A DNA stretch of 36,363 bases from Vicinamibacteria bacterium (lineage in GTDB: Bacteria; Acidobacteriota; Vicinamibacteria; Fen-336), in contig JAMPXO010000044.1 in assembly GCA_023701125.1 (NCBI GenBank), positions 1 to 36,363 of the forward strand. Direction: 5' to 3'. Shown here piece after piece: positions 11 through 35,551 of this stretch. Below the pieces are notes generated by a model. The model was not told where the DNA came from. It made no database searches and worked only from the letters and a program-made list of their open reading frames with translations. The position numbers and the translations under genes are program-made. Positions within the stretch are counted from its first letter, which is position 1, and each line of letters starts with the position of its first letter.

Positions 11-68
11 CGCTCCACGGGGGCTCCGTCGGGCGGCAAAACCTCCTCCGCCCCCGCACCCCCAGAAA
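11..68 (-). repeat. Dispersed GC-rich hairpin repeat, copy 1
   Basis: This gene-free left edge lies just downstream of the AAA ATPase stop. Read on the minus strand it contains GGGGGCGGAGGAG (43-55), a 17-base middle, then AGCCCCC followed by GTGGA (14-25). GGGGGC and GCCCCC can pair as a hairpin (arms 50-56 and 18-24). The same two blocks, with a middle of nearly the same length, occur at 34735-34774. It may act as a transcription terminator for the operon ending at 74, but it has no T tract. The run of 11 C at the extreme left could be a true base run or an assembly edge. Confidence 0.55.
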
Positions 69-73
69 GAAAT

Positions 74-1903
74 CTATTCTCCCAGCACCGCTTTCAGGTG
101 GGCGATGCGGGCGTTGACGTCGGTGAGCGAGAGCTTGCGGAAGCGCTCCGGCAGGAAGCGGGTGTCGGTGCACTCCTTGACCGCCAGCAGGTCCATCAGC
201 TCCAGCCGCTCGACGTGGGCCGAGCTGCGGAAGTCGGCGATCGCCGCCTCGATGCAGGAGCGCAAGCTCGGCGCCGCCGCGCCGCCGCGCGAGGCCAGGT
301 CCAGCCCGGCCTCGTGGGCGCGCAGCGCGCGCACCAGCACGCCCTCCATCTCGTTGCCGCCGATCTGGTCGTCGTCGGGCAGCCGCGGCAGGTCGGCGGG
401 GGCGATGTCGAGCTTGAGCTTGCGAGCCATGGCCGCGAACAGCGCGGCGCGACCTTCGGCGTCGCCCGGCGGGAACAGCGGGATGTGGACGTCGAGCCGG
501 CCCTGGCGCTTGAGGTCGACCTCGACCAGGTCGGGCCGCGAGGTGGCGAAGATCCAGATGATCTTGCCGCGGTTGCGGGTGTCCGACATCTCCTTGGCCA
601 GCATCGCGTAGATGCGGCCGCCGAGGCCGGAGTCGCCGTCGCCGCCGCCGCGCTTGCCCGTCGCCTGGTCGGCCTCGTCGACGAACACGATCACCTGGCC
701 GAGCGCGTGCAGGATCGCGAACACCTTCTCGAGGTTGCCCTCGGTGGCGCCGACCCACTTGTCGCGGAAGTTCTTCATCTCCACGCAGGGCACGCCGATG
801 TCGCCGGCCAGGCACTCGACCAGGTACGTCTTGCCGGTGCCGATGCGGCCGGTCAGCAGGTAGCCCATCGGGATCGCGCGGGTCTTGCCGCGCTTGAGCA
901 GCACCGCGTCCTCGCGCAGCCAGGCCTTGGCCTCGACGTGGCCGGCGACGTCGTCGAGGGTGCGGTCGGTCTCCAGGAACTCCAGCCGCCCGGCCGCCTC
1001 CTTCTCGATCAGCTCCTTCTTCATCCGGGTCAGGAACGCCCCGCTGATGCGCTCGCCGGAGCCCATCGCCCGCCGCACCAGCGTGCGCACGCCGACCCGG
1101 GTCAGGCCCACCAGCTTGTCGGCCAGCGCCTCCTTCGGCACCTCGGACAGCTTGTCGAAGTCCTCGCCGGCGACCAGGTCGTGGACGAAGCTGCGGATCT
1201 CGGCGCCCGTCGGCAGCGACAGCTTGACCTTGGAGCTGTGCGGGTTCTCGACCAGCGTCTTGTTCAGGTCCGACAGGTTCTCGGCGATCAACGCCGTCGC
1301 CACCACCGCGCCGGTGATCTGCGGGTCGCGCGACCAGTCGAGCAGCTGGATCACCGTCTGGCTCGACTCGCTCACGTACGCAGGGTCGCCGGCCGGAGCC
1401 ACGAACTGGGCGTGGTCGACGATCACCGCGACCCGCAGCGGGTCGGCCACCGCGCGCGCGTCCTGGACCTTCGTCCGCGACACCGCGTGGCGCAGGAAGC
1501 GGTCGACGATCTCGATCGCCCGCTTCGGGTCGCGCGGCAGCAGGTTGCCGAAGTCGAGGCCCGCCAGCTTGTCGGTGCCCGGGTCCGGCATCGACGCCCA
1601 GTTGGTGCCCGAAAACGTGTCGAAGGCCTTCAGGAAGCGGTAGAAGGGCTCGGCGCCCCGGCGCGCGCGCAGGCCGCGGCCGCGGTCGTAGACGAGCACG
1701 ACGTCGAACGGCGCGAACATCGTGGTCTCGAGGAAGCGCGCCAGCGAGACCCACTCGCGCCCGCCCTTGCCGTCCACGCCCTCGACCAGGTCGAACACGT
1801 TGCCGTGGAGGACGAACTGGCTGGCGGCGCCGCTGCGGAATGCCCCGCGCATCTCCTCGGCCCAGGCGGGCAACGTCGTCGGTGGCGGCGTCGGGTCAGC
1901 CAT
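74..1903 (-). CDS. Two-tier AAA ATPase (Ycf46/Vps4-like), PspA operon
   Basis: The 609-residue protein has a complete AAA module in its second half: Walker A GRIGTGKT (352-359), Walker B VIVFVDEADQ with D409/E410, a sensor-1 segment ATSRPD (453-458, Ser where Asn is usual), and arginine-finger region KRQGR (465-469). The first 300 residues lack a P-loop but contain a Walker-B-like IVDHAQ near 161 followed by a QTVIQLLDWS helix. This resembles the degenerate first tier of Ycf46-type ATPases (inference). A GGAGG lies 8 bases before the ATG. The gene is last in the operon, 22 bases after the coiled-coil protein. The likely role is ATP-driven remodelling of a protein assembly, plausibly the PspA polymer encoded first in the operon. 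The substrate is not shown by the sequence. Confidence 0.85.
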   Translation of the reverse strand: MADPTPPPTTLPAWAEEMRGAFRSGAASQFVLHGNVFDLVEGVDGKGGREWVSLARFLETTMFAPFDVVLVYDRGRGLRARRGAEPFYRFLKAFDTFSGTNWASMPDPGTDKLAGLDFGNLLPRDPKRAIEIVDRFLRHAVSRTKVQDARAVADPLRVAVIVDHAQFVAPAGDPAYVSESSQTVIQLLDWSRDPQITGAVVATALIAENLSDLNKTLVENPHSSKVKLSLPTGAEIRSFVHDLVAGEDFDKLSEVPKEALADKLVGLTRVGVRTLVRRAMGSGERISGAFLTRMKKELIEKEAAGRLEFLETDRTLDDVAGHVEAKAWLREDAVLLKRGKTRAIPMGYLLTGRIGTGKTYLVECLAGDIGVPCVEMKNFRDKWVGATEGNLEKVFAILHALGQVIVFVDEADQATGKRGGGDGDSGLGGRIYAMLAKEMSDTRNRGKIIWIFATSRPDLVEVDLKRQGRLDVHIPLFPPGDAEGRAALFAAMARKLKLDIAPADLPRLPDDDQIGGNEMEGVLVRALRAHEAGLDLASRGGAAAPSLRSCIEAAIADFRSSAHVERLELMDLLAVKECTDTRFLPERFRKLSLTDVNARIAHLKAVLGE

Positions 1904-4524: not shown

Positions 4525-6258
4525 CTACTTCGCCTCGGGCGGGTAGACCGAGATCTCGACCCGGCGATTCATCGCGTGGTTCTGGGGATCGTCCGGGTTG
4601 GCCGGCTCGTCCCACGCCTTGCCCTCGACGATGAACTTGTTGGGGTCGAACTTGTACTTCTTGACCAGCGCCTGGCGCACGGCGTCGGCGCGGTCGGCGG
4701 AGAGCTGCTTGACGTCCTCGAAGCGCGGGCCCTTGCCCTTCATCGAGCCGTCCGTGTGGCCGACCACCGCGATCACCGCCCGCTCGTACTGGCCCGCCAG
4801 CCGCGCCACCTTCTCGAGCGTCGCGTCGGCGCCCGGGTCGTACAGCGTGTTGGGGACCGGCTTGCCCGACTCGTCGTGCTGCGGCTCGAAGATGTTGGCC
4901 GAGTTCGGGTAGAAGTTGATGCGGATGGTCTGGGTCAGGATCGGCGCCTCGGACGACAGCTTCTTGTAGGCCGTCGGCGCGAACTGGGCGCGGTTCTCGT
5001 CCTTCTGGTGGGCGAGCTTGCCCTCCCTGTCGAGCGCCTGCAGCACCGAGAAGTCCATCACCTCGTCGAAGCGGACCGGGGTGTCGATCAGGCCCAGCTC
5101 GCGGTACACGAAGTTGACGTTCTTCCAGGTCCGCTCGAAGTTGGCCGGGTCGTTGGCGTTCATGAAGAAGTTCTTGTTCTCGCCGAAGTTGGTCGAGTGG
5201 GCGTCGGCGGCCATCGAGCGCACCTCCTCGGCCTGCATGCCGTAGCCCTCGGCCATCGCCGCGAACGCCTTCTCGCGCTGGGTGTCGTCCTTCAGCAGGT
5301 CCATGCCCTTGAAGATGCCGGCCACCAGGCCCTTGATCACCTCCGGGTGGTCCTTGGCGAAGTCGGCGCGCGCCGCCCACACGTCGGCGATCAGCTTGTT
5401 GGCCTCGGCCGTGGTGGTCAGCACCCGCGTGCCCTTGACCTTCTCCGGGATGTTGTAGATGTCGGGCGCCCACGACACGCAGGCGTCGATCGACTTGTCG
5501 GAGACGAAGGCCGCCGCCGCCTCGAACGCGGTGGCCGTGAACTTGTGCTTGACCTCGGACGGCTGCACGCCCGCGTTCAGCAGCAGGTTGTTGATGAAGT
5601 ACTGCGACGGGCTGTTCTGGGCGTAGACGATGGTCTTGCCCTTCAGGTCCTTGACCGACATCACGTTGCCGCGGACGACGATGCCGTCGCCGCCCGACGA
5701 CCAGTCGACCTGCTGGAAGATGCGCGGCGCGCTGCGCGAGTCCTTCATCAGGTCGGGCGCGAACAACACCATCATGTCGAGCGTGCCCCACAGGATCTGG
5801 CTCTCGCCGGCCGCGAAGCTGTCGCGGGCGACCACGGGGTCGTCGATCAGCTTGAGGTTGACCTTGAAGCCGTACTCCTTGAAGAACACGCTGTTCTCGC
5901 TGGGCGCGAAGCCGCCGTTGGCGGCCACGATCGGCAGCCAGCCGATCCAGACGTTGATCGGGAAGTTGACGACCTTCGCCTTGTCGTCCCACTTGTAGGC
6001 CGACACGCCCTTGACGGGCGGCAGCTTCTCGGACGGGACGTACTTGTACTCCTGGACCGTGGTGATGCCCTTGGCGTCGGGGGCCTCGACCTTGCGGAAC
6101 TCGTCGAGGTCGACGTTGGCTGCGCCGCCCCTGCCGGAGGGGGCGAGCATGTCGCGGAAGTAGTACGCCGCCCCGCCCAGGCAGGCGAGGACGAACAGGA
6201 ACAGGACCAGCTTGCCGAGCACGGTCGGCCCGACAGGCTGCGGATTCTGATCGCTCAT
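4525..6258 (-). CDS. Membrane-anchored SBP (NMT1/SsuA-like) fused to OmpA
   Basis: This 577-residue fusion begins with an uncleaved-looking signal anchor (about 14-34) that has no lipobox Cys. A type-2 periplasmic binding fold of the NMT1/THI5/SsuA kind follows (about 97-400; WIGWLPIVAANGG near 104-116 and DACVSWAPDIYN near 258-269). An OmpA-like peptidoglycan-binding domain closes the protein (about 445-575: IRINFYPNSA, VVGHTDGS with D503, LSADRADAV with R523, MNRRVEI near 563-569). The protein would span from inner membrane to cell wall and present the binding domain to the co-encoded permease. AGGAGA precedes the ATG by about nine bases. PspA lies 26 bases upstream. OmpA-fused binding proteins exist in some genomes, but the substrate is unknown. 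Confidence 0.88.
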   Translation of the reverse strand: MSDQNPQPVGPTVLGKLVLFLFVLACLGGAAYYFRDMLAPSGRGGAANVDLDEFRKVEAPDAKGITTVQEYKYVPSEKLPPVKGVSAYKWDDKAKVVNFPINVWIGWLPIVAANGGFAPSENSVFFKEYGFKVNLKLIDDPVVARDSFAAGESQILWGTLDMMVLFAPDLMKDSRSAPRIFQQVDWSSGGDGIVVRGNVMSVKDLKGKTIVYAQNSPSQYFINNLLLNAGVQPSEVKHKFTATAFEAAAAFVSDKSIDACVSWAPDIYNIPEKVKGTRVLTTTAEANKLIADVWAARADFAKDHPEVIKGLVAGIFKGMDLLKDDTQREKAFAAMAEGYGMQAEEVRSMAADAHSTNFGENKNFFMNANDPANFERTWKNVNFVYRELGLIDTPVRFDEVMDFSVLQALDREGKLAHQKDENRAQFAPTAYKKLSSEAPILTQTIRINFYPNSANIFEPQHDESGKPVPNTLYDPGADATLEKVARLAGQYERAVIAVVGHTDGSMKGKGPRFEDVKQLSADRADAVRQALVKKYKFDPNKFIVEGKAWDEPANPDDPQNHAMNRRVEISVYPPEAK

Positions 6259-7889: not shown

Positions 7890-7919
7890 GCCTGCGCCGG
7901 AGTGAATCCCGGCGCAGGC
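7890..7919. terminator. Strong hairpin between convergent genes
   Basis: GCCTGCGCCGG (7890-7900) and CCGGCGCAGGC (7909-7919) form a perfect 11-base stem with an 8-base loop. It sits between the convergent stops of the lipoprotein and phoH genes and could serve both strands. There is no T tract, so an intrinsic terminator in the strict sense is not shown. Confidence 0.55.
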
Positions 7920-7942
7920 TCCGCCCCCAGGCCCCCGGGGGC
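7919..7942 (-). repeat. Dispersed GC-rich repeat, copy 2 (partial)
   Basis: Read on the minus strand, 7938-7919 is CCGGGGGCCTGGGGGCGGAG. This differs at one position from the 20 bases at 34725-34744 on the plus strand. The left end forms the perfect palindrome GCCCCCGGGGGC (7931-7942), which overlaps the phoH stop codon. The AGCCCCC-RTGG half seen in the other two copies is missing, and the 7890-7919 hairpin follows instead. Confidence 0.5.
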
Positions 7943-9264
7943 TACAACAGGTTGCTGGCCAGCTCGGCGAGCGGGCTGCGCTCGCCCTTGACCAGGTTGA
8001 CGTGGGCGAACAGGTCCTGGTCCTTCATCTTGTCGATCAGCACCGTCAGCCCGTTGCTCTGCGAGTCCAGGTAGGGCGTGTCGATCTGGTGGATGTCGCC
8101 GGTGAACACCACCTTCGAGCCCTCGCCCGCGCGGGTGATGATCGTCTTCACCTCGTGCGGCGTCAGGTTCTGCGCCTCGTCGACGATGAAGTAGACGTGG
8201 TCCAGCGAGCGGCCGCGGATGTAGGCGAGCGGCGCCACGCAGATCTTCTCCTGCTCCACCATCTCGCCCAGCGCGCGGTGCTCCTTGCTCTCCGGCGCCA
8301 GCCGGTGGCGGATCACCGCGATGTTGTCCCACAGCGGCTGCATGTACGGGTCGAGCTTGCTCTTGACGTCGCCCGGCAGGTAGCCGATGTCGCGGTTGCC
8401 CATCGGCACCACCGGCCGCGCCAGGAAGATCTGGCGGAAGTGGCGGCGCTGCTCGAGCGCCGCTGCCAGCGCCAGCAGCGTCTTGCCGGTGCCGGCGCGC
8501 CCGGTCAGCGTGACCAGTTGGCACTCCGGCCGCATCAGCGCGTCGATCGCGAAGATCTGCTCGGCGTTGCGCGGCTCGACCCCGTAGGCCGGGCGCTTGG
8601 CCACGCGCTCGAGCAGCCCGCTGTGGCGGGCGAAGTGGGCGAGCGCCGACAGGCTGCCGTTCTTCATCACCAGGTACTGGTTGGGCAGCAGGTTGGGCGG
8701 CGCGCCCGGCACCTCGGTGTGGGGGATGGTGTGCGGCTCGGTGTGCAGCCGCGCGATCACGTCGGACGGCAGCCCCTCGATCGCGGCGGTGCCCGTGTAC
8801 AGCCGGTCGGCGTGGCGGACCTTGCCGGTCGTGTAGTCGTCGGCGCGCAGGCCGAGCGACTTGGCCTTCATCCGCAGGTTGACATCCTTGCTGACCAGGA
8901 TCACCTCGCGGTCGGGGTGGCGCTCGCGCAGCTCGTCGGCCAGGGCCAGGATGCGGTGGTCCGGCTTGTTGCTGGCGAAGGCGTGGGCGACCCGCGTGCT
9001 GCGCCCCTCGCCGATCTCGATGAACAGCCGGCCGCGCCCCTCGCCCAGCGGCAGCCCCTCCGTCAGCGAGCGGTCGCCGGCCAGCTCGTCGAGCTCGCGG
9101 ATGAAACTGCGGGCCTCGAGGTTGATCGCCTCGTTGCCGCGCTTGAAGCGGTCGAGCTCCTCCAGCACGACGATCGACAGCGCGACGTCGTGTTCCTTGA
9201 AGTTGTAGATGCAGGAGTGATCGAACAGCACGACGTTGGTGTCCACCACGAAGAGCTTGCTCAT
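7942..9264 (-). CDS. PIN-PhoH family ATPase/ribonuclease (YlaK-type)
   Basis: This 440-residue fusion carries an N-terminal PIN nuclease domain (about 1-150: FVVDTNVVLFD with D8, acidic VVLEELD with E35/E36, VSKDVNLR with D127) and a PhoH-type ATPase domain (about 220-440: GRAGTGKT at 255-262, IVDEAQ with D362/E363, VVFTGDIHQID). The family is thought to couple an ATP-driven helicase-like motor to RNA cleavage. The start is set at MSKLFVVDTN, preceded by GAGGT five bases upstream, and an earlier in-frame start only adds seven residues. A possible promoter lies at 9423-9451. The gene stands alone between convergent and divergent neighbours. Confidence 0.92.
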   Translation of the reverse strand: MSKLFVVDTNVVLFDHSCIYNFKEHDVALSIVVLEELDRFKRGNEAINLEARSFIRELDELAGDRSLTEGLPLGEGRGRLFIEIGEGRSTRVAHAFASNKPDHRILALADELRERHPDREVILVSKDVNLRMKAKSLGLRADDYTTGKVRHADRLYTGTAAIEGLPSDVIARLHTEPHTIPHTEVPGAPPNLLPNQYLVMKNGSLSALAHFARHSGLLERVAKRPAYGVEPRNAEQIFAIDALMRPECQLVTLTGRAGTGKTLLALAAALEQRRHFRQIFLARPVVPMGNRDIGYLPGDVKSKLDPYMQPLWDNIAVIRHRLAPESKEHRALGEMVEQEKICVAPLAYIRGRSLDHVYFIVDEAQNLTPHEVKTIITRAGEGSKVVFTGDIHQIDTPYLDSQSNGLTVLIDKMKDQDLFAHVNLVKGERSPLAELASNLL

Positions 9265-21079: not shown

Positions 21080-22339
21080 TCAGGACGGATCGGGCCCCAC
21101 GTAACGGGCGCGCGGCCGCAGCAGGAAGCCCGCCTCGCGCTGCTCGAGGACGTGGGCCACCCAGCCCGCGCAGCGCCCCAGCGCGAACAGCGCGCTGGCC
21201 GCGCCCGCCGGCAGGCCCAGCCCCGCCGCCAGCGCCACCAGCCCGACGTCGACGGTCGGCCGCTCGAGCCCGGCGGTGTTGGCCGCGTCGATCAGCGCGC
21301 GCACCGTGCGCAGCCGTGGCCGGGTGGGCGCCAGGGCCAGCGCCGCGTCGAGCAACGGCGGCGTGCGCGGGTCGCCCGCCGGATAGAGCCTGTGGCCGAA
21401 GCCGGGCAACGCCTCGCCGCGGCGCAGTCGTGCGGCAACGGCGCTCGCCGCGCGCTCGGGGCGGCCGACCTCGTCCACCAGCGCTTCGACCCGGTCGCAC
21501 TCGCCGCCGTGGCGCGCGCCGGTCAGCGTGCAGAGCGCCGCCAGCAGCGCCGCGGCCAGCCCCGTCCCGGCGGAGGCCGCCACCCGGGCCGCGAACGTGG
21601 AGGCGTTCAGCTCGTGGTCCGCCAGCAGCACCAGGGCGCGGTCGAGGGCTGCGCGCGCCCGTGGCGACGTGCGACCGAGCAGCGCCAGCGCGGCCCCGTC
21701 GGCCACGCTCGCGGCCGCCCCGGTGCGCCGCAGTCGGCGAGCATCGACGGCGAGTGCCAGCGCCGCGGTCAGCGCCCGGATCAGGCGGCGCGCCACCACG
21801 AGCTCGGCGCTCGTGGCGCGGCCCACGGGCACGGGGTCGCCGACGGCGGACGCCGCCAGCGCCAGCAGCATCGCGTCCAGCGGCCGGGCGCCGGCGGGCA
21901 GGTGCGGGCGCAGCGCCAGCAGGCGGCCGGCGACGCCCGGCTCGAGCGTCGGCCACGTCGGCGCCGCCACCGGCAGGGTCCCGCTCCACAACAACTCGGC
22001 GACGGCCTCGTAGCGGGTTCCCGCCGCCGCCAGCGCCGCCGCCCGCTGGCCGCGGTAGACCGGGCCGTCCGCGCCGAGGCCGCTGATCGCCGACTCCAGC
22101 ACCGGCTCGCCGAAGCGCAGCGCGCCGGCGGCGACCGGGGCGTGCCCGGCGCGGGCCTCGCCCCGCTCGCGCAGCCGCTCGAGGTCCTCGCGCCGGTACT
22201 GGCTGGTGCCGCGCCGTTCTCCGTCGCGGCGGCGGACCTGGCCGCGGCTCGCGTAGGCGTAGAGCGTCGCCCGCTTGACTCCGAGCAGGCGGGCCGCCGT
22301 GGCGGCGTCGAGCCACTCGCGCTTGATCGGGGTTTCCAT
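21080..22339 (-). CDS. Citrate synthase-family protein with N-terminal HTH
   Basis: This 419-residue protein starts with a MerR/excisionase-type DNA-binding helix-turn-helix (about 8-58: WLDAATAARLLGVKRATLYAYASRG and RREDLERL). A full citrate synthase fold follows. Catalytic-type residues are present: His in ARHGG, His in GFGHRLYPAGDPR, and Asp in PTVDVGLVAL. It could be an enzyme that also binds DNA or a regulator derived from the enzyme. Its target is plausibly the palindromes in the shared promoter with the divergent citrate synthase gene. The ATG lacks a Shine-Dalgarno and has GACAAT six bases before it. HTH-fused citrate synthases next to a plain paralog are a recurring but poorly characterised arrangement. 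Confidence 0.85.
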   Translation of the reverse strand: METPIKREWLDAATAARLLGVKRATLYAYASRGQVRRRDGERRGTSQYRREDLERLRERGEARAGHAPVAAGALRFGEPVLESAISGLGADGPVYRGQRAAALAAAGTRYEAVAELLWSGTLPVAAPTWPTLEPGVAGRLLALRPHLPAGARPLDAMLLALAASAVGDPVPVGRATSAELVVARRLIRALTAALALAVDARRLRRTGAAASVADGAALALLGRTSPRARAALDRALVLLADHELNASTFAARVAASAGTGLAAALLAALCTLTGARHGGECDRVEALVDEVGRPERAASAVAARLRRGEALPGFGHRLYPAGDPRTPPLLDAALALAPTRPRLRTVRALIDAANTAGLERPTVDVGLVALAAGLGLPAGAASALFALGRCAGWVAHVLEQREAGFLLRPRARYVGPDPS

Positions 22340-22342
22340 GTG

Positions 22343-22371
22343 TTGATTGTCGAATCAATGTGGATCCACAT
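22343..22371. promoter_or_regulatory. Two adjacent palindromes in divergent promoter
   Basis: TTGATT-GTCG-AATCAA (22343-22358) is immediately followed by, and overlaps by one base, the perfect 14-base palindrome ATGTGGATCCACAT (22358-22371). They sit between the two citrate-synthase-family genes. The first overlaps the GACAAT box of the HTH protein. They are good operator candidates, most simply for the HTH protein itself. Confidence 0.55.
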
Positions 22372-22408
22372 CAAGCTCCGGCGCATCGTGCTGCGGAGGA
22401 GGACAGGG

Positions 22409-23521
22409 ATGGCGACGATGGAGGGCGCGCCCACGGGGCTCGCCGGTGGACTGGACGGGGTCGTGGTCGGCGACACGGAGCTGTCGCTGGTGGACGGCGG
22501 GCGCGGGCGGCTGGTGCTGCGCGGGCACGACGTGGAGGCACTGGCGGGCCACGTCTCGCTCGAGCACGTCGCCGGGCTGTTGCTGGACGGCCGGCTGCCG
22601 GACGGGCCGCGCCGGACCGCGATCCAGGCCGCCCTCGGCCGCGGTCGCGCCGCCGCCGCCCAGCGGTTGCGCGCCGATCCCGCGCCGCTCGCCGCCGAGC
22701 ATGCGATGGACGCGCTGCGGGCCGGCGTGTCGCGGCTGACGGAGCCCGCCGATCCACTCTCGGCATTGGGCGAGTTGGCGGGGGCGATCGGCGTGATCGC
22801 CGCCGCCTGGTCTCGCGGCCGGGCCGGGCTGGAGTTGCTCGCGCCCGACCCTGCGGCGGGCCACGCCCACGACCTGCTGCGGCTGGCCACGGGCACGGCC
22901 GACGACGAGCGCGCCGCAGCCCTCGATGCGTATCTCGTGACGGTCAGCGACCACGGCATGAACGCCTCGACGTTCGCGGCCCGCGTCGTCGCCTCGACCG
23001 GCTCGGACGTGGTGTCGAGCGTCGTCGCGGCGCTCGGCGCGCTGAAGGGCCCGTTGCACGGCGGCGCCCCCGGCCCGGTGCTCGACATGCTCGACGCGAT
23101 CGCGGAGCCCGACCGGGCGGCGGGCTGGATCGACGGCGAGCTCGCCGCTGGTCGCCGGATCATGGGCCTCGGCCATCGTGTCTATCGCGTCCGCGATCCG
23201 CGCGCGGCCGTACTCGAGGCGGCGCTCTCCCGCCTGCAGCGGGGCCGCGTCGCGACCGGGCGGCTGGCCGTCGCCCGCGCCACCGAGCAGGCGGCCGAGG
23301 CGGCCCTCGCGCGGCGCCACCCGGGCCGCGCGCTGAAGGCCAACGTCGAGTTCTACACGGCCGTGCTGCTGGAGGCGATCGGCCTGCCGCGCAGCCTGTT
23401 CACCGCGACCTTCGCGGCGGGCCGGGTCGTCGGCTGGCTGGCCCACGTGGCCGAGCAGCAGCGCACGGGCCGGCTGATCCGGCCCGGAGTGCGCTACGTT
23501 GGACCGATGCCGGCGGCGTGA
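22409..23521 (+). CDS. Citrate synthase / 2-methylcitrate synthase family
   Basis: This 370-residue enzyme shares the fold and many motifs with the divergent HTH protein, including DHGMNASTFAARVVAS against DHELNASTFAARVAAS. Active-site His residues lie in PLHGGAPG and GLGHRVYRVRDPR. The third catalytic position is Glu in NVEFYTAV, where E. coli-type enzymes have Asp in NVDFYSG. NVEF also occurs in a subgroup of short bacterial citrate synthases. The reaction would condense acetyl-CoA or propionyl-CoA with oxaloacetate. The start at 22409 is chosen because AGGAGG lies about eight bases upstream. An in-frame ATG at 22358 would lie inside the operator and place that ribosome site within the coding region. 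Confidence 0.85.
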   Translation: MATMEGAPTGLAGGLDGVVVGDTELSLVDGGRGRLVLRGHDVEALAGHVSLEHVAGLLLDGRLPDGPRRTAIQAALGRGRAAAAQRLRADPAPLAAEHAMDALRAGVSRLTEPADPLSALGELAGAIGVIAAAWSRGRAGLELLAPDPAAGHAHDLLRLATGTADDERAAALDAYLVTVSDHGMNASTFAARVVASTGSDVVSSVVAALGALKGPLHGGAPGPVLDMLDAIAEPDRAAGWIDGELAAGRRIMGLGHRVYRVRDPRAAVLEAALSRLQRGRVATGRLAVARATEQAAEAALARRHPGRALKANVEFYTAVLLEAIGLPRSLFTATFAAGRVVGWLAHVAEQQRTGRLIRPGVRYVGPMPAA

Positions 23522-34543: not shown

Positions 34544-35551
34544 GTGGAAGCGCCGACCGTCTCCGTCGTCATCCCCGCTTGCGACGAGGAGGCCTGCATC
34601 GAGGCCACCGTGCGCGAGGTCCTGGCCGCGCTGCCCGGCGAGCGGGTCGAGATCGTGATCGTCGACGACGGCAGTCGCGACGGCACCTGGGCCGTGGTCG
34701 AGCGTCTCGCCGCGGCCGACCCCGCCGGGGGCTTGGGGGCGGAGGAGCTCCGTTCGCGACGTAGCCCCCATGGGACCGGCGCCGGGCTCCGCCCGGCATC
34801 GGAACCCGTGGTCCGCGGGGTGCGGCTCGCTCGCAACTTCGGCCACATGGCGGCGCTGCAGGCGGGGTTGCACGAGGCGAAGGGCGCCGCCGTGATCACG
34901 ATGGACGCCGACGGCCAGCATCCCGCGGACGCGCTGCCCGCGATGCTGGCGGCGTGGCGCGGCGGAGCGGCCGTGGTGCAGGCGGTGCGGATCGCCGAGG
35001 AGCGGCGTGGCCTGTTCAAGGGCTACACCTCGGGCCTGTACTACCGCGTGTTCTCGCGGCTCGCCGGCATCGAGTTGAAGGAGGGCGCCGCGGACTTCCG
35101 GCTGCTCTCGCGCCAGGTCGTCGACGTGGCGCTGGCACACCCGCACTTCGCGCTGTTCCTGCGCGGGTTCGTGAGCTGGACGGGCTTCCACACCGCGTCG
35201 CTGCCGGTCGCGTTCCGGGCCCGCAGCGCCGGCACCACCAAGTACTCGCTGCGCAAGATGCTGGCACTCGGCGCCGAGGGCGTGCTGCGCTTCTCGACCA
35301 AGCCGCTGCGGGCCGCGACCTACCTGGGCCTCGCCACCTGCGCGCTGTCGCTGACCTACCTCGTCTACGTGCTGGTGATCCGATTGTTCGGCCACGACTT
35401 CGTCACCGGCTGGGCGTCGGTCGCAGGCTTGATGGCGCTGATCGGCGGCATCCAGTTGCTGGTCGTCGGCATCCTCGGCGAGTACGTCGCGGTCGTCTTC
35501 GAGCGCCAGATCGGGCGACCGGACTACGTTGTTTCGGAGAAGAAGAACTAG
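34544..35551 (+). CDS. DPM1/GtrB-like glycosyltransferase with insertion
   Basis: This 335-residue polyprenyl-phosphate glycosyltransferase has a GT-A domain (VSVVIPACDEEACI; IVIVDDGSRDGT with D41/D42; metal site MDADGQHP; later RSAGTTKYSLRKM). It ends in two C-terminal membrane helices (about 258-277 and 290-313). It would transfer a sugar to undecaprenyl phosphate at the inner membrane. Between D59-P60 and V89-V90-R-G-V, about 28 residues (AGGLGAEELRSRRSPHGTGA onward) replace the short link usual in the family, and they are encoded by a dispersed hairpin repeat. The frame stays open, so the protein is probably functional. GTG start; a weak TAGAAG lies nine bases upstream. Its stop and the helicase stop share CTAG. 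Confidence 0.88.
   Translation: MEAPTVSVVIPACDEEACIEATVREVLAALPGERVEIVIVDDGSRDGTWAVVERLAAADPAGGLGAEELRSRRSPHGTGAGLRPASEPVVRGVRLARNFGHMAALQAGLHEAKGAAVITMDADGQHPADALPAMLAAWRGGAAVVQAVRIAEERRGLFKGYTSGLYYRVFSRLAGIELKEGAADFRLLSRQVVDVALAHPHFALFLRGFVSWTGFHTASLPVAFRARSAGTTKYSLRKMLALGAEGVLRFSTKPLRAATYLGLATCALSLTYLVYVLVIRLFGHDFVTGWASVAGLMALIGGIQLLVVGILGEYVAVVFERQIGRPDYVVSEKKN
34721..34800 (+). repeat. Dispersed hairpin repeat, copy 3, inside a coding region
   Basis: CCGGGGGCTTGGGGGCGGAG (34725-34744) matches copy 2 with one mismatch. GGGGGCGGAGGAG (34735-34747) and AGCCCCC-ATGGG (34763-34774) match copy 1. GGGGGCT (34727-34733) and AGCCCCC (34763-34769) can pair. A second small inverted repeat, CCGGGC / GCCCGG (34783-34795), follows. 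All of it is read in frame within the glycosyltransferase. Confidence 0.6.

Follow-up and report, generated by a model that had tools for sequence, protein, structure and literature searches.

A dispersed palindromic element family with in-frame intragenic copies in a genus of Vicinamibacteria

The window, the whole 36,363-nt stretch of DNA analysed here, is contig C190 of a 5.4-Mb metagenome assembly in 254 contigs (G000); two further species of the same genus, G001 and G002, provided the comparison genomes. At positions 34544–35551 of the plus strand, the window carries an intact open reading frame encoding a GtrB/DPMS-type family 2 glycosyltransferase of 335 amino acids (Pfam PF00535), the best solved relatives of which are GtrB sll0501 chains such as 5ekp. 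A first-pass annotation, made from the sequence alone, had proposed that about 28 extra residues (61–88) interrupt this protein, and the alignments bear this out: 17 of 17 aligned homologues have a matching gap, located past the helix that comes next to VDDGS and ahead of the strand VRGVRLARNFGH. The insert is absent from the glycosyltransferase of the two same-genus species and of 16 more distant homologues; the annotation had raised the possibility that homologues lacking the repeat would carry the same insertion, and they do not. In DNA alignments with the genes in G001 (L009) and G002 (L090), the gene has a net gain of 84 bp and is otherwise collinear.

The inserted DNA contains an 81-bp palindromic element of subfamily A (34727–34807, plus strand; nhmmer model positions 1–81) that is absent here from G001 and G002, has 78% G+C and is read in frame +0 as GGLGAEELRSRRSPHGTGAGLRPASEP. 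It consists of two adjacent stem–loops on the plus strand. The first (SL1; 34727–34769), defined by folding and pair counts, has outer arms GGGGGC/GCCCCC; the second (SL2; 34772–34807; helix 3 in the pair counts) contains pairs that are altered on both sides among copies. The element is flanked on the same strand by the triplets GCC on the left (34724–34726) and GTG on the right (34808–34810), the latter completing the 84-bp net insertion; the two triplets match imperfectly, with no clean duplication at this site. In an AlphaFold2 model of the protein, the catalytic domain mostly scores above 90 and the insert has low confidence (52–58 in 10-residue blocks); the insert is probably a floppy stretch of about 28 amino acids, as far as the prediction indicates. 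The dN/dS of the gene against the sister species is about 0.2, indicating constraint over the span that separates the two, at some point of which the insert would have arrived.

The annotation had further taken the inserted DNA for one copy of a repeat family and had named a lack of further genomic copies as the alternative. A 32-base core gave 74 matches in G000 at up to 3 mismatches and none in a reversed control, and the 19-base left end gave 235 matches at up to 2 mismatches against 8 in the control. By the left end, therefore, G000 holds roughly 230 copies, far above chance, and these lie both inside and outside genes. Contigs C72, C107, C112, C140, C177 and C208 of G000, as well as the window at positions 1–68, start or end within element arrays. 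Because contigs break inside such arrays, array lengths and copy number are underestimated. Two further copies had been proposed within the window, at 11–68 and 7919–7942; similarity is present at both, and neither is a full copy. The first is a weak, diverged left-half copy (15–62, minus strand; nhmmer E = 0.56) at the contig end, adjoining the 3′ end of the gene at 74–1873 (minus strand), and the second is a 20-base fragment resembling the left end of the element (7919–7938, minus strand; 19/20 by blastn) inside a different hairpin between convergent genes. That other strong hairpin (GCGCCGGAGTGAATCCCGGCGC; 7900–7945), which lies alongside the fragment, is possibly a related repeat or a terminator.

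The distribution of the element is narrow. Among 17 genomes of the order, it occurs only in the three of this genus, and among 396 Acidobacteriota genomes from 211 genera, a set drawn without G001 and G002, it occurs only in G000. A scan of viral contigs with one exact pattern, and searches of phages and plasmids, gave no match, and carriage by phage, plasmid or virus was rejected on these grounds. Rfam 15 contained no match above the gathering score, and a single literature search returned no description of a comparable repeat from Vicinamibacteria.

The commonest unit is 81 bp long and reads GGGGG(T/C)TTGGGGGCGGAG...CGGAACCC, with copies of this length averaging 92% identity to the consensus. 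Its stem–loops span positions 1–43 and positions 46–81, the second having 14 pairs, 5 of which are altered on both sides in some copies. The covariation score of 0.115 compares with 0.081 in shuffles, none of 500 shuffles scored as high and slid controls reached at most 0.059. These values support, short of proof, selection on pairing in the second stem–loop, the copies being related to one another and the structure having been derived from the same copies. Each half of the element is also found alone, and tandem arrays have a period of 84–86 bp in G000 and 87–88 bp in G002. Two subfamilies can be distinguished: A, of 81 bp (27 codons), and B, of 84 bp (28 codons), which has three more bases, is the main type in G001 and G002 and is also present in G000. 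An 82-bp variant of subfamily A occurs in all three genomes. The proposal that the sequence tolerates translation holds in that five of the six frames of the consensus are open. Special adaptation to translation, however, was rejected, because composition-matched shuffles have nearly as many open frames (mean of 4.4 of 6, 49% having at least 5); the high G+C content alone suffices to explain translatability.

We assigned gene context with a codon-usage gene finder trained on the genes of the window and applied with element bases masked, after a simple codon score that used no gene model had left the context unclear. Two samples of sites were used, one picked by similarity to the core (sample 1) and one picked by the exact left end only (sample 2). 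The element lay in genes at 33 of 82 sites in sample 1 and 7 of 17 in sample 2, that is, about 40%, a genome-wide fraction that is an extrapolation from these samples; random placement would put a far larger share in genes, as about 94% of the sequence is coding. At that rate, the roughly 230 copies could place the element in some 90 proteins. Intergenic copies adjoined the 3′ end of a gene in 57 cases and the 5′ end in 32. Within genes, the copies of sample 1 occupied both strands and all six frames (+0, 11; −0, 11; −2, 4; −1, 3; +1, 3; +2, 1), and 20 of 32 full copies sat exactly between codons (p = 0.001).

The reading frame of host genes is preserved. Among in-gene units, 31 of 34 had a length divisible by three, against 32 of 57 outside genes (Fisher p = 0.0004), a contrast that is partly circular because the gene finder requires an open frame. 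Sample 2 alone showed no such contrast, and both of its full A-type in-gene units were 82 bp. A fairer test takes the position of the site from the G001 gene: ten sites fall clearly within a G001 gene, and in G000 the frame is kept at every one of them. These comprise eight sites of sample 1, of which #18 and #27 lie near the stop codon, together with L295 and L298, the last being the weakest case. Where a sample-1 site is intergenic in G000 yet falls in a gene in G001, it is always within 35 bp of a gene end.

The other host proteins are diverse. In HisF (L149), residues 1–138 and 166–280 align to the solved chain 4evz, which is itself continuous at residue 137, so that the insert cleanly interrupts the alignment with solved HisF chains. 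MoeA, RecQ and other hosts retain their Pfam domains; further hosts recognized by Pfam are an AMP-binding enzyme, an amidohydrolase, an amino-acid permease, an ABC transporter and a DUF2332 protein, and a penicillin-binding protein carries the element near its C terminus. A second glycosyltransferase (L295) reads FPGLAS, then 29 residues, then NPPRVLYAGQLYPW, where G001 reads FPGLASGGSKRVLYAGQLYPW.

Comparison between species indicates recent gain or loss of the element. For 23 sample-1 sites, both flanks lie within the 1.6 Mb of G001 examined, and nearly all of these sites are without the element there; several junctions among them are not clean, and #12 and #79 retain some extra sequence. 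Five of the six sample-2 sites that could be placed in G001 likewise lack the element, the sixth (L298) lying in a proline/alanine-rich linker where the alignment is uncertain. Three copies in G002 (L272, L274 and L288) are absent from G001, with flanks 90–100% identical (97–99% on most sides). One copy (L285/L268) is common to G001 and G002, in frame in a dehydrogenase that is 96% identical between them, showing that in-gene copies can be inherited. Sister species thus differ in presence or absence at the same sites, and the suggestion that the repeat is mobile or expanding stands: it has spread. Some of the element-free G001 sites could nevertheless reflect loss, and the boundaries of G001 sites are often blurred by 10–25% divergence and by decayed neighbouring copies. 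At one pair of loci (L274, 2994–3077, versus L208, around 9471), the 84-bp element plus 8 flanking bases in G002 stand opposite ATCCTCAG in G001, between flanks 98–100% identical where they align; because CTCAGCC also occurs in the loop of the element itself, the G001 allele could be a deletion remnant instead of an original empty site. Short remnants resembling the right end of the element (GGAACCC) lie to the left of the full copies at L272 and L288, as if older copies had decayed there or new copies had inserted beside old ones.

The left flank of the element tends towards CCCGNC and the right flank towards GNCGG, a consensus that could be part of the element itself instead of a target preference. 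The triplets at −3 to −1 and +1 to +3 agree in register at 17 of 66 sites, above the shuffled expectation (p = 0.0016). At L154, the duplication is clean (GTC) and the site is 92–93% identical; other sites show no duplication or a small replacement. Searches for a mobilizer in G000, G001 and G002 gave no Y1_Tnp (PF01797), for which control genomes gave matches, no DDE_Tnp_1, and no match to ISAzo13 in a search run without a positive control. An IS110 parent was rejected, because the 1.7–3.3-kb loci of the six PF02371 matches in the three genomes hold no copy of the element. An autonomous partner with the element halves as its ends was also rejected, the only candidates being separated same-orientation pairs about 70 bp apart.

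As a whole, the data are very probably best explained if the insert is a copy of a palindromic element that is dispersed, non-autonomous and specific to the genus. Such an element would spread by insertion, apparently preferring sites like G-N-C followed by GG and sometimes leaving a 3-bp near-duplication. Frame-shifting or stop-carrying insertions would be purged, and those that keep the frame would persist because the roughly 28 residues may be accommodated by the host protein as a polar, disordered loop. The mobilizer would most likely be a transposase acting in trans that has been lost or has gone unrecognized. The junctions count against the insertion step of this explanation, as they vary between a net 81 or 84 bp, with one 8-bp replacement and decayed copies nearby.

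A rival origin, as a miniature inverted-repeat transposable element (MITE) derived by internal deletion from an insertion sequence with a 3-bp target duplication and moved by the DDE transposase of that sequence, has a real chance of being correct, although we hold it below even. The in-register triplets, the clean duplication at L154 and the target-like flanks would all fit, and the ends GGGGGTTT and GGGTTCC (reverse complement) are weakly alike. Bacterial MITEs with intragenic copies include ERIC, BOX and QMITE1 of Coxiella (reviewed in PMC10969869), and the element resembles these in being small, non-autonomous, present at high copy number and sometimes fused in frame to host genes. By contrast with them, no parental insertion sequence was found here, and both terminal inverted repeats and duplications are weak. 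Several sites lack a duplication altogether, no longer element with the same ends occurs in the 2 Mb examined, and an IS4/IS5-type parent was rejected for want of DDE_Tnp_1 in the three genomes.

A mechanism that itself favours codon boundaries, in which a G-N-C target combined with a length of 3n would place insertions between codons on either strand and make genes a habitat too, seems doubtful to us. If true, it would describe a selfish element fitted to life inside proteins. G-N-C is a common codon shape in G000, which would explain the codon-boundary bias.

Less probable again is a classical REP or REPIN moved by a host RAYT (a Y1 transposase). The palindromic units, tandem and mosaic arrays, half copies and proximity to gene 3′ ends are all REP/BIME-like (PMC3733652), and many copies have GTAG at positions 35–38. 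That GTAG is internal, however, with GGAG almost as common, and none stands at the end of a 20–40-bp palindrome; the unit of 81–84 bp exceeds REP length; and the missing Y1_Tnp leaves the three genomes without the transposase that this reading requires. Intragenic GTAG- or CGTC-tagged REPs are described in Opitutus terrae, Thauera, R. conorii and others (PMC3733652), and these too occur as palindromic units in singles, dimers and arrays, mostly intergenic near 3′ ends with some in genes and in frame (PMC3733652). They differ from the present element, for which no terminal GTAG or CGTC tag is established, the units are longer, the genus has no RAYT and the in-gene share is larger (about 40% of sampled copies). 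By the tests made, the element is not a RAYT-driven or GTAG-tagged REP. The REPINs and BIMEs of enterobacteria and pseudomonads have two palindromes per unit, half units that occur alone and tandem arrays. The present element shares the paired palindromes, solo half units and arrays, but its two stem–loops have different sequences, and no RAYT transposase was found.

That the insert acts as a functional coding module, with selection on the amino-acid sequence of a peptide tag or domain that passed from protein to protein, is very improbable: frames +0 and −0 are the commonest and the +0 peptide is similar across many hosts, but all six frames and both strands are in use, over half of the copies are extragenic, the hosts are unrelated and what is kept is stem pairing at the DNA level. 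An artefact of chimeric assembly, sequencing error or a miscalled gene is least probable of all; this is a metagenome assembly in which several contigs (for example, C112, C140, C177 and C208) end inside the element, yet such breaks are expected inside a high-copy repeat, the element occurs in three separately assembled species and host genes are collinear on both sides at 80–98% identity to relatives.

The dispersed, non-autonomous element that we favour invites comparison with the palindromic elements of Rickettsia (RPEs) and Wolbachia (Ogata et al.). PMC10969869 and PMC3767692 describe these as dispersed, about 100–150 bp long and in many cases in frame in unrelated genes, encoding residues that the protein apparently tolerates, and RPE sites are common to rickettsial orthologues (PMC3767692). 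The analogy drawn in the first-pass annotation holds for behaviour, as roughly 230 copies of a palindromic repeat occupy one genome, many in unrelated genes with the frame kept. It does not extend to host, composition or architecture. RPEs reside in reduced, A+T-rich intracellular genomes and the present element in a G+C-rich 5.4-Mb Acidobacteriota genome; the unit here is 81–84 bp with two stem–loops and a very different base composition; and the sister species here lack the element at orthologous sites. The element looks like a family separate from RPEs, set apart by these features, with the likeness resting on behaviour. With RPEs compared by description, we class it as a new family within a known kind, that of dispersed palindromic elements some copies of which sit in frame inside genes.

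Palindromes that code for protein are familiar above all from Rickettsia, and REPs inside genes have been described in a handful of other genomes. The family described here is large, sits in a 5.4-Mb Acidobacteriota genome and can be set against sister species, as little as about 2% diverged, in which the same sites are element-free. Its length classes of 81, 82 and 84 bp offer a direct test of how selection filters insertions, and the insertions of about 28 residues in HisF, RecQ, MoeA and GtrB form a natural collection in which to study how proteins gain new segments.

Elsewhere in the window, inspection by eye revealed two adjacent, divergent citrate-synthase-like genes (21080–22339, minus strand; 22358–23521, plus strand), the first of which encodes an N-terminal stretch resembling a MerR-type helix–turn–helix. 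Also by eye, the gene at 4525–6258 (minus strand) encodes a protein resembling an ABC-transporter substrate-binding protein, the C-terminal part of which is OmpA-like.
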